Below, in pieces: positions 29,779 to 33,976 of a stretch of 64,000 bases of DNA. Source of the DNA: Candidatus Zixiibacteriota bacterium (GTDB lineage: Bacteria > Zixibacteria > MSB-5A5 > WJJR01 > JAJRUJ01); contig JAGVQM010000021.1 of NCBI GenBank assembly GCA_020051695.1, positions 1-64,000 of the forward strand. Reading direction: 5' to 3'. Made by a program: the position numbers and the translations under genes. Position 1 is the first letter of the stretch. Each line of letters begins with the position of its first letter. The notes beneath the pieces were generated by a model. The model did not search any database. It was not told the DNA's origin and saw only the letters and a program-made list of their open reading frames with translations.

Positions 29779-29916
29779 CAGATTACAGGTCAATACCCCG
29801 GCGGCTTTGACCCCGGATCGTGAAGCGATCTACGGTGATCCGTATTTCCTCGGGGAGACTTCCCTGGAAACCCCGGTTTTCAACCGGGGCTACGCCGGCC
29901 ACATTCATTTAGTCGT

Positions 29917-30054
29917 GGCATGGGCATCTTCCGCCAAAGGCGGACAAGTGCCCATGCGCCCCGGCGGAAGCCGGGGCCACCTGACAACCGCCACGCATAA
30001 GTACTCGTCACACAGGCAGTCACTTGCCCACCATGAAATGGTGGGCCACCGGTC
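29917..30054. repeat. Compound repeat family C, copy 1
   Basis: Contains GGGCATCTTCCGCC, CGGACAAGTGCCCATGC, a CCCCGGC..GCCGGGG hairpin, AAGTACTCGTCACAC, and CCCACCATGAAATGGTGGG. The order is the same as in copy 2. Confidence 0.85.
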
Positions 30055-30268
30055 AAGTCGTCATTTCGAGCCGCGCAGCGGCGAGAAATCTTCCGCCGCG
30101 TGCGGGTAAGATTTCTCCTCGCTAGCGCTCGTCGAAATGACAAGAGCGCCAAGTCCGACATTGTACACCACCCCGCGGGCAGGTGAAATAGTAATGACAG
30201 AATGAGACACGCGGGAGAAATCCCACTATTCACCTGTTGGGTGAGGTACCACGTGCCACGGTTACGGC

Positions 30269-30300
30269 TGGATTCCCCGCTGCCGCGGCGGGGAATGACA
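30269..30300. repeat. Palindrome family B, copy 3
   Basis: TGGATTCCCCGCTGCCGCGG followed by CGGGGAATGACA; same ends as copies 1 and 2. Confidence 0.65.
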
Positions 30301-30316
30301 AGATTGGGTTTTTTGT

Positions 30317-30474
30317 CGCATGAGCATCCTCCGCCAAAGGCGGACAAGTGCCCATGCGCCCCGGCGCCTGTCCGCCTGTGGCGGGGAAGCCGGGGCCACG
30401 TGACGACCGCCGCGCATAAGTACTCGTCACACGGGAAGTCACTTGCCCACCATGAAATGGTGGGCCACCGGTCG
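30317..30474. repeat. Compound repeat family C, copy 2 (with internal insertion)
   Basis: Same modules as copy 1 in the same order, but about 20 extra bases (CCTGTCCGCCTGTGGCGGGG) sit inside the CCCCGGC..GCCGGGG hairpin. The extra piece is itself a palindrome. Confidence 0.85.
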
Positions 30475-30486
30475 ACAAAAGAGCAT

Positions 30487-32160
30487 TTAAGGCACTTGTT
30501 CCATACGGGCTTCTTTGATCCATTTGACGAAAGTTGGCCTCGATTTTTGGGAGGATACGATAAAGACCTTGTTTTTGGCGCGCGATAGTGCCACAAGGAA
30601 GTCGCATATATCCCGGTCAGTAATCCCTATTTCTTTCTGATTTTGGATTAGATATTGATCATCGCAATAAACCATGAACACATATTCAGCAGAAAGCCCT
30701 TTGGAACTTTCCCTCGTTGTAATAGTGATTGGAATATTTCTCAATCCTCTGTTTCTTATTGGACTTGGCCTAATCTTAAATACATCAGACAACGCATCCA
30801 TTTTCATCCTTAAAGAATCCATGTTTAATACTTCAATCAATTTATCCAGATATTCTTCTTCAACGTTTGATTCATTGTGTAACGCCTTAATTATTTGACG
30901 ATACTTAAGGACGGTCTTCTTCATTTCAACTGGAACGATCTCAACAAATGGATTGGGTTTTTCCACCATAGTTTCAGATAATAGGCGTTTGAATTCCTCG
31001 GGATCTAATAGGCGACTTGCGACAATTCTCCACCCCAAATTACTGTCTTTGTGTTCACTGATTATCTCAAGTCCATTTATAATTGAAACCGTCTCCGGCT
31101 CCTTTGGTTTGATAGGAGTGAGATTAGCAAATCCCTTTTCCGCCAATTTCTCAAATATATCATTGCATTGGTTCCTGGTTGGGGCAATGACCAAAACCGA
31201 AAAAGTTTCCTTTCTTTCAGTGGCAATTTCTTTCAACTGTTCCTCAATGAAATAAGGAATCTTTTTGGCCCATTGATGTGAATAGCACAATCTTGGATGC
31301 TTATGACTCACACGATTCTTTTCTTCGCATTCATAGTACTTGTAATCTTTGTTGATCCGGCCTTTCAAATGCCCCTCTTGTGTTGCTTTTGCGATCACGT
31401 CATTAACCGCTTCAACGATCACTTCTGTACAACGGGAGCAATAAGGAAGGCTATGCGATTCATAATTTGTGTTATCCGCCGCATATCGCCTCCTTATAAA
31501 TGCGGTGCTGGCCCCTTTCATGGAGTACAGCGCTTGGTCATCATCACCGACCAATAGCAGAGGATTATTCTCACTAAGTAAATCAATGAAAGAGACTTCG
31601 AGTTTGTTGAAATCTTGAAATTCATCAATTAGTATCTGATCGAAAGCGGGGATTCTGTTACGCTTTGACATTAATAGTCTGAGAGCCTTGTATATGATAC
31701 TGGAGTAAGCATAATAATCGTAATACCTCTGCCTCCTGCAAAGAAACTCAAATTGCTCGCTATTGTCCTTCAAATTATTGAAATATTCATCGAAATTAAT
31801 ACTATAATTTGATAAGATTTTCGCATCTTCATTTATGACCGTCGGTAGCAATGGAAAAATCTCTGCCTTTTCGTCCAATACTTTATTCAGTATGTATCGG
31901 GCGAATCCGTGCAATGTATAAACTTTTGATAATCCGAAAAGATCTAGGGACAAATCGTCGACGAGCGCATTAACAAATGAAAGAGTTAGGCATTTTGATT
32001 TCTTCGCCGCCAACTGTTTGAATAGATATGTTTTCCCTGTGCCGGGTCCGGCCACTACAATGATCTTTTTTGAACGCGAATTAATAATGTCAGCGGTGCA
32101 GTCTTCGCGTTTTGCATGAGCCTCGCTGTATTTAACTTGTTCCATAGGTATCGTTTGCAT
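30487..32160 (-). CDS. UvrD/Rep-like SF1 helicase, AT-rich, repeat-bounded
   Basis: A 557-residue SF1A helicase with Walker A GPGTGKT at residues 38-44, Walker B ILIDEFQDFN, motif III VGDDDQALYSMKGAS, motif V ITTRESSKGLSAEYVFM, and a degenerate motif VI LVALSRAKNKVFIVSS. It has YCSRC where UvrD-type enzymes have an NYRS-like motif, matching the YCRRC of the helicase at 6757-8646. It starts after GGGAGG with seven-base spacing. Base composition is clearly more AT-rich than the genes on either side, a sign of transfer. It stands alone between family C repeats. A defence or mobile-element role is plausible but unproven; it is not Gabija, because no GajA-like gene is present. Confidence 0.87.
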   Translation of the reverse strand: MQTIPMEQVKYSEAHAKREDCTADIINSRSKKIIVVAGPGTGKTYLFKQLAAKKSKCLTLSFVNALVDDLSLDLFGLSKVYTLHGFARYILNKVLDEKAEIFPLLPTVINEDAKILSNYSINFDEYFNNLKDNSEQFEFLCRRQRYYDYYAYSSIIYKALRLLMSKRNRIPAFDQILIDEFQDFNKLEVSFIDLLSENNPLLLVGDDDQALYSMKGASTAFIRRRYAADNTNYESHSLPYCSRCTEVIVEAVNDVIAKATQEGHLKGRINKDYKYYECEEKNRVSHKHPRLCYSHQWAKKIPYFIEEQLKEIATERKETFSVLVIAPTRNQCNDIFEKLAEKGFANLTPIKPKEPETVSIINGLEIISEHKDSNLGWRIVASRLLDPEEFKRLLSETMVEKPNPFVEIVPVEMKKTVLKYRQIIKALHNESNVEEEYLDKLIEVLNMDSLRMKMDALSDVFKIRPSPIRNRGLRNIPITITTRESSKGLSAEYVFMVYCDDQYLIQNQKEIGITDRDICDFLVALSRAKNKVFIVSSQKSRPTFVKWIKEARMEQVP

Positions 32161-32314: not shown

Positions 32315-32376
32315 TCACTTACGGCAAAAAACTCTGTGCCGCCATGCGGGCGAAATCGAGGAAGGGGCCAGGACAG
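32315..32376 (-). pseudogene. Diverged duplicate of the nuoN 3' end
   Basis: Matches 32509-32570 over about 62 bases with roughly seven mismatches and no gap. On the minus strand it would encode PGPFLDFARMAAQSFLP and a TAA stop, against PGPFLDFALTAAQSFLP in the intact gene. Confidence 0.8.
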
Positions 32377-32379
32377 GTG

Positions 32380-32400
32380 GCCCACCATTCCATGGTGGGC
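32380..32400. repeat. Family C-related palindrome
   Basis: GCCCACCAT-TCC-ATGGTGGGC, a perfect nine-pair hairpin resembling the CCCACCATGAAATGGTGGG module of family C. Confidence 0.75.
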
Positions 32401-32512
32401 TGGAAGAACGTCTCTTTTATATCATCGGACGTCTGGCTAACAATTAGGTGGCGCAAATAATCTAGGTGCATATTGCCGGGGCGTCCGCATTCATTTGCTG
32501 GACGTCACTCAC

Positions 32513-33976
32513 TTACGGCAAAAAACTTTGTGCCGCCGTGAGGGCAAAATCGAGGAAGGGGCCGGGGTAGACACCGATGATCAGGATCGCCAGCACCGCC
32601 ACCGAGAGGATGATCTTGTATAATGCCGGGAACGGCACCGGGTCGGTGGGGTAATCGCCCTCTTTGGCGAAATACATCCGCCACATCACATACGCATAGT
32701 AATACAACGCAATCACCGAGGTCAACAGCGCGACAAGCACCAGCCACATATACCCCTGGCCGATCGCGGCCATGAAAACATAATACTTGCCGACAAACCC
32801 GGCCAGCGGCGGGATACCGGTCAACGACAAGAGGAAAATCAGCATATATCCCGCCAGCATCGGCGAGCGTTTGGACAGCCCGGAATAATCCATAATCAGG
32901 TCCGAGCCGGTTTTCTGCGCCACGACAATCGCCACAATGAAAGCGCCCATATTGGCGAACAAGTAGGCGATCATGTAAAACGTCATCGCCGACACGCCGG
33001 CGGCATTGGTCGCCACCACCGCCACGAGGATATACCCGATATGCGCAATCGACGAATACGCCAGCATGCGTTTGATGTTTTTCTGCACGACGGCGGTGAT
33101 GTTACCCACGATCATCGCCAGCGCCGCCAGCGCGGCGAGGATCATCAGCCATTCGGTTTGTGCGATAATCAGCCCGCCGAAAAACACGCGCAGGAACACC
33201 GCCAGCCCGGCGGCCTTGGAGGCCGTTGATAAGTACGCGGTGATCGGCGTCGGCGCGCCCTCGTACACATCCGGCGCCCACATATGGAACGGCACCAGCG
33301 AAAGCTTGAACCCGAACCCGGCAATCAGCAGCACCGCCGCGACAAAAAAGCCGCGCGGGAATTCCCCGGCCGAAAAACGCAACTGCAGCAGGGCGTCTTT
33401 GATCTCGCCATACTCCAGCGAGCCGGTCAGACCGTACATCAGCGCGATACCGTACAGCATCACCGCCGAGGAGATCGCGCCCAAAATCACATATTTCAAT
33501 CCGGCTTCGGCCGATTTGGTGTCGAATTTCTTGTAGGCCGCCAGCACGAACAGCGAAACGGTCGCCAGTTCCAGCGCAACATACATCGACAATAATTCGC
33601 CGGCGGAGACCATGAACATCATCCCCACCGCCGACAGCAGCACGACCCCGAAATACTCGCCGCGGTGCGCGGGAAATTTGTTGGCCGTATCAATCGAGGA
33701 AGCCACAGTGAACATCGCGGCCACCAAGATGATCAACTTGAACGCCAGCGCAAAATCATCGGCGATGAACATGATCCCGAACGCCTGGCCCCTGCCGGAG
33801 GTAATCAACAGGACCGTCGTGATCACCAGCCCGATGAACGACCACGCCGCCATGGTCCCGGCTGCACGTTTGCCGAACGCCCCCATGGCAAGCACCAGGC
33901 AGGCAAAAATAAACAGCACCACCTCGGGGATGATCAGACTCAGATCGCCGTACATTTCCGCGAACGAAATATTCAT
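32513..33976 (-). CDS. nuoN: NADH-quinone oxidoreductase subunit N
   Basis: A 487-residue antiporter-like membrane subunit with about 14 spans. Visible family blocks are KYVILGAISSAVMLYGIALMYG (broken-helix region, about 150-172), FKLSLVPFHMWAPDVYEGAPTP near 222-243, KRMLAYSSIAHIGYILV near 303-319, and SLTGIPPLAGFVGK near 389-402. It pumps protons in the membrane arm of complex I. It is the last gene of the nuo run; a diverged second copy of its final codons lies downstream at 32315-32376. Confidence 0.95.
   Translation of the reverse strand: MNISFAEMYGDLSLIIPEVVLFIFACLVLAMGAFGKRAAGTMAAWSFIGLVITTVLLITSGRGQAFGIMFIADDFALAFKLIILVAAMFTVASSIDTANKFPAHRGEYFGVVLLSAVGMMFMVSAGELLSMYVALELATVSLFVLAAYKKFDTKSAEAGLKYVILGAISSAVMLYGIALMYGLTGSLEYGEIKDALLQLRFSAGEFPRGFFVAAVLLIAGFGFKLSLVPFHMWAPDVYEGAPTPITAYLSTASKAAGLAVFLRVFFGGLIIAQTEWLMILAALAALAMIVGNITAVVQKNIKRMLAYSSIAHIGYILVAVVATNAAGVSAMTFYMIAYLFANMGAFIVAIVVAQKTGSDLIMDYSGLSKRSPMLAGYMLIFLLSLTGIPPLAGFVGKYYVFMAAIGQGYMWLVLVALLTSVIALYYYAYVMWRMYFAKEGDYPTDPVPFPALYKIILSVAVLAILIIGVYPGPFLDFALTAAQSFLP

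Follow-up and report, generated by a model that had tools for sequence, protein, structure and literature searches.

Some integrase elements restore the 3' end of the gene that they target, as e14 does at icd, and the nuoN locus described here resembles these elements in that a gene end is duplicated with few differences while the gene itself is intact; it is unlike them in having no integrase, only some 136 bp between the two nuoN copies, and a REP palindrome at the edge of the repeat. A second likeness is with the REPtron (Nunvar 2010, PMC2817692; Corneloup 2021, PMC8266576), whose PF01797-type transposase gene, inverted palindromes at the borders and scattering of that palindrome through the genome all recur among our loci, but from which our loci differ in the long direct duplications of host DNA that we see outside the unit; we found no mention of such duplications in the parts of this literature covered, which included few subscription journals. 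RAYT elements share the Y1 (HUH) transposase fold family and hairpin ends with IS200/IS605 elements, which are reported, in the part of the source covered, to occur without larger target duplications (PMC2817692), and because these relatives make none, a target duplication at a REP insertion is unexpected; the RAYT loci here, in contrast, show duplications of 37-219 bp. REPINs (PMC3116915), as presented in the sections covered, are units built from REPs which RAYT is believed to move in trans, and they differ from our locus in that the latter has one REP, with filler and a duplicated gene end adjacent. In the covered portion of one of the REPtron papers, REP transposases are described as cleaving single-stranded REPs when purified, with a 3'-OH left that could prime replication or strand transfer, and the manner of REP spread as unresolved (PMC8266576); the REPtron papers, in the same partial coverage, stress the lack of evidence for RAYT mobility (PMC2817692; PMC8266576).

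The window, by which we mean the whole stretch of DNA that was analysed, covers the opening 64 kb of contig C14 (355 kb) in a Zixibacteria genome of 3.53 Mb, 43 contigs and 98.9% completeness, hereafter the home genome. Judged by NuoN, the closest named relatives are Candidatus Zixiibacteriota. The features that concern us are as follows.

32513 to 33976, minus strand: nuoN, intact, 487 aa, with PF00361 and TIGR01770 matches
32509 to 32570, minus strand: gene copy of the repeat, comprising the last nuoN codons, the stop codon and 4 bp beyond; 55 of 62 bases match 32315-32376
32401 to 32508, no strand: filler of 108 bp from nuoN to the REP, unique in the genome and not derived from a RAYT gene
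32372 to 32400, plus strand: REP of the C25 RAYT family, core 32376-32400, its outer GACA/GACC end facing the ghost (pattern scan with shuffles; genome copies and their flanks)
32315 to 32376, minus strand: the ghost, a further copy of the nuoN end left stranded, with an overlap of its last 4-5 bases and the REP edge
30487 to 32160, minus strand: UvrD-like (GajB-like) solitary helicase, outside the duplicated structure (PF00580; PADLOC GajB, E=5.9e-21)
30445 to 30473, minus strand: second REP of the C25 RAYT family, oppositely oriented and lying 14 bp beyond the stop codon of the helicase
30026 to 30054, minus strand: third REP of the C25 RAYT family, within a mosaic at 29915-30473

The first-pass annotation had reported a second nuoN end with about seven differences, two of them changing amino acids. 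The repeat is real, and the differences number exactly seven, five of them in a core where 53 of 58 bases match; the native copy reads PGPFLDFALTAAQSFLP and the ghost PGPFLDFARMAAQSFLP, each followed by a stop codon, so that the two amino-acid changes are also correct. The repeat is bordered 4 bp beyond the stop codon on one side and by the edge of the REP palindrome on the other. A 19-base piece across the stop codon, with up to three mismatches allowed, occurs at just these two sites in the 3.5-Mb genome. When the nuoN tail was compared with its own downstream DNA the score was 43, far higher than chance would give, against 12 or less at 107 other nuoN-like loci; no nuoN-end ghost was found at these loci, which speaks against an old tandem duplication present in all relatives.

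The gene order is nuoN with its own end, the unique 108-bp stretch, the REP palindrome, the ghost and then the helicase. Apart from its REP, the interval of about 136 bp between the nuoN end and the ghost has no match elsewhere in the genome, and an origin of the filler as a RAYT remnant was rejected, there being no similarity to RAYT genes or proteins. The helicase cassette of the first-pass annotation is beyond the ghost and does not lie between the two copies. In its simplest form, the idea of an element that carried in the helicase while restoring nuoN is ruled out: the repeats leave the helicase outside, and a third copy beyond it was sought across the genome with the 19-base piece and rejected, since that piece was found at just two sites. 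Attachment-site duplication by an integrase element that restored nuoN would suit a target at a gene 3' end, a stop codon in both copies and their slight differences, but the repeats enclose only some 136 bp, in which no integrase fits, and none was seen among the neighbouring genes examined; already disfavoured, this explanation now has hardly any claim on belief. What survives of the original proposal is that an insertion beside nuoN which left the gene whole is most likely, without an integrase-type restoring element.

The helicase is AT-rich (GC 33-44%, compared with 53-65% in its surroundings), its best PADLOC matches are GajB of Gabija, no GajA was found among the neighbouring genes examined, and its homologues, all distant, are confined at E<=1e-20 to two further genomes within the phylum. 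It may well be of foreign origin; the ghost says nothing about its arrival, and under an insertion reading the helicase-side DNA (from TAAGTGAATATCAATT onwards) would have adjoined nuoN before the REP arrived. Directly after the helicase, window positions 29915-30473 form a mosaic of two REP families containing a 156-bp direct repeat (83% in a gapped alignment).

The palindrome GGTGGCCCACCATNNNATGGTGGGC occurs at about a dozen places in the home genome; it is imperfect and flanks a RAYT gene on contig C25, and the copy beside nuoN is thus a REP of a RAYT family. With 12 REP copies, a duplication edge would come to lie no more than 5 bp from one of them by chance with a probability of approximately 3e-5. 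The nuoN site is not itself a REPtron, having one REP and unrelated filler in place of a RAYT between inverted REPs, nor is it a REPIN, since a single REP and no inverted pair lies between the copies. Among the other single REPs of this family in the home genome none was found with such a repeat. A local-repeat scan covered about 0.86 Mb of that genome. A third candidate ghost in the home genome (L200, 10609/10781) was dropped because its repeat is dispersed. Contigs C1 and C25 (first 260 bases) each have a REP of this family no more than about 230 bp from their start, which looks as though the assembly had broken there.

The nuoN site has a counterpart on contig C25, where a RAYT-type Y1 transposase gene (PF01797; 178 aa) at 90.1-90.8 kb stands amid three REPs of the GGTGGCCCACCATNNNATGGTGGGC family and lies between inverted REPs, as in a REPtron. 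Here the end of an aldehyde dehydrogenase gene is followed by the REP-RAYT-REP unit and then, at the outer REP, by a ghost of the last 37 bp of that gene, 33 of which are identical and which include the stop codon. The order is identical to that at nuoN and the same REP end touches the ghost. There is also short similarity between the REP end and the target, clearest at C25 (ACCCGG). That similarity, and the flush position of the ghost against the REP, would suit replication slippage, in which the REP came first and, with no transposition involved, a polymerase stalled at its hairpin and re-copied the nuoN end via short homology; but duplicates at RAYT loci span the entire REP-RAYT-REP unit, one gene considered below (L236) is interrupted by the unit, and most single REPs of the C25 family have no such repeat, all of which makes slippage improbable.

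To see how general this anatomy is we turned to the phylum, in which 110 of 132 Zixibacteria genomes have RAYT relatives. Eighty RAYT regions and further loci were collected, hairpins were masked, the two flanks of each RAYT were compared, and scores of at least 22 were counted, with position-shifted flanks within the same loci as controls. Flanking direct repeats were present at 15 of 62 RAYT loci in a first batch, as opposed to two of 297 shifted controls (p=8e-11), and at two of 18 in a more distant batch (controls, 1/83), giving 17/80 against 3/380 overall (p=2e-11); the largest control repeat is an unrelated long repeat (L333). About half of the 17 have REPs within them and may be no more than REP mosaics of the usual kind, a class to which a repeat near REPs at L179 was also assigned because it contains REPs. 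Seven are single-site duplications of host DNA, as sorted from REP mosaics by eye, with uniqueness checked among the collected loci for all but L242: C25 (37 bp), L236 (39 bp), L260 (59 bp), L255 (74 bp), L271 (81 bp), L238 (138 bp) and L242 (219 bp). Even set conservatively against all three controls, these seven alone give p=3e-4. Ten canonical IS200-type loci with enough flank, for which the locus middle was taken as the gene position, showed nothing comparable, and the RAYT clade had no match at 1e-15 in the genomes of other phyla searched. At a number of RAYT genes (L254, L283, L261, L285, L290, L294 and L349) there are long flanking direct repeats containing paired REPs, 76-160 bp in length and some of them 98-100% identical.

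In most of the seven, one copy has a REP end against it or close by and the opposite side has from a few to more than 100 bp of filler. The nuoN site, with a flush REP on one side and 108 bp of filler opposite, follows this pattern; both element ends flush, as in a conventional target-site duplication, is not what we see at nuoN or at most loci. Young cases have near-identical copies (137/138 at L238, 38/39 at L236). At L236 the element is within the 3' end of a 262-aa gene, which now ends in NPVVNDK at a new stop from the element side, while the ghost-side reading preserves the old end, NPVVNGGSK and stop. Sites without the element were sought for L271 in three congeners and for L236 in one, and no alignable site was found. 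Most of the surveyed genomes are metagenome assemblies, and this, with the two contigs of the home genome that start close to REPs, counts in favour of reading the nuoN structure as an assembly chimera of two coexisting strains; yet the same anatomy is seen at C25 and at L236, whose genome was assembled as one contig, and the nuoN junction is inside a 355-kb contig, so that we consider a chimera very unlikely.

It had been suggested that the differences between the copies mark a nuoN end that came in from a relative, and that equal closeness of both copies to one relative would weigh against this. At the five differing core bases, the sole relative in the same family (G001, NuoN 73% identical) does agree with each copy twice, but it is too distant to decide the matter; its nuoN has one end, and its downstream DNA does not align with the window. 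In that genome a RAYT gene with a different REP is directly downstream of nuoN (contig C9, L119:7823-8356), and the same spot is therefore hit by REP/RAYT elements in both sister genera. Ghost and gene match the NuoN family equally well, an outcome that five neutral hits would seldom give: were all five core differences neutral, the probabilities would be 0.007 for change from gene to ghost and 0.02 for ghost to gene. These values are too strong, since some of the five changes may have hit the gene under selection. With that reservation, two working sequences are a better fit than simple decay.

The same tendency is more marked at L242 (contig C49 of genome G111), where a RAYT lies between a full kinase gene and a ghost made up of 50 codons of its 5' end and 70 bp upstream. 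The ghost differences are mostly silent: 13 are at third positions, four at first and none at second, with three amino-acid changes (P=0.05 if half of the changes were neutral), and this ghost may derive from another allele or a paralogue. On such sequence comparisons the ghosts of nuoN and of the kinase resemble working alleles more than copies in decay. Either recombination with relatives replaced the gene side at a later time, or two alleles meet in some of these structures. The latter is the main rival to an insertion, and is in effect the idea of the first-pass annotation without an integrase: DNA from a relative arrived with its own nuoN end, homologous recombination on one side and an illegitimate join on the other leaving the ends of two alleles side by side. 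The constraint-like differences in both ghosts suit it; the exact start of the ghost at the REP and the recurrence of the anatomy at RAYT loci are left unexplained, and the near-identical young cases would need very close donors. We regard it as a minority prospect, to be kept in view.

Our preferred reading, probable if by no means secure, is that insertion of a REP element at the nuoN 3' end produced a long target duplication whose far copy is the ghost. The nuoN end would at first have directly adjoined what is now the helicase-bearing DNA. Insertion there of a REP element from the C25 RAYT family would have followed, its outer REP end being joined within the last nuoN codons, presumably by the RAYT enzyme, and about 60 bp of target would have been copied during or after the join, for instance by synthesis primed from the cut 3' end, one copy completing nuoN and the other being stranded beyond the REP. 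Afterwards the copies would have diverged, or the gene side been replaced. A precise join at the outer REP end, and copying of the target from the free 3' end before the other end was sealed, would together leave one side flush, filler on the opposite side and a long duplication of variable length. Between the copies there is one REP and 108 bp of filler in the window, and a whole REP-RAYT-REP unit at C25 and other loci.

The flush REP, the anatomy of C25, the uniqueness of the repeat, the enrichment of long repeats at RAYT loci, the seven single-site host duplications, the old and new gene ends at L236 and the near-identity of the young copies support this insertion. Against it count the absence of an empty site at the sites examined, a unit in the window with a single REP and without a RAYT, a stretch of filler separating copy from REP that a clean insertion would not lead us to expect, the likeness of the nuoN and L242 ghosts to working alleles, and the want of a repeat at any other single REP of the family.

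More tentatively, and with rather less confidence than for nuoN itself, we suggest that Zixibacteria RAYTs could insert REP-RAYT units or REP fragments while copying tens to hundreds of target bases, giving long duplications of variable length. If so, such duplications would give an element access to gene ends while sparing the gene, which would explain elements at the ends of operons such as nuo with the last gene unbroken; the footprint would be new for Y1 enzymes within the literature covered, and would be evidence for RAYT movement. Long duplications in RAYT flanks may then be the missing footprint of palindrome spread, and a recurrent scar is measurable, in the length of the duplication, in which end is flush and in the existence of empty sites; insertions of varied ages would allow RAYT movement to be tracked in an uncultured phylum. 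Finally, a 37-bp sequence beginning GCCACGGTTTATCGTC recurs at several places beside a different REP, GCATGGGCATCCTGCCCATGC (L200:10609-10817, L192:1880), and looks like a dispersed REP-associated unit.
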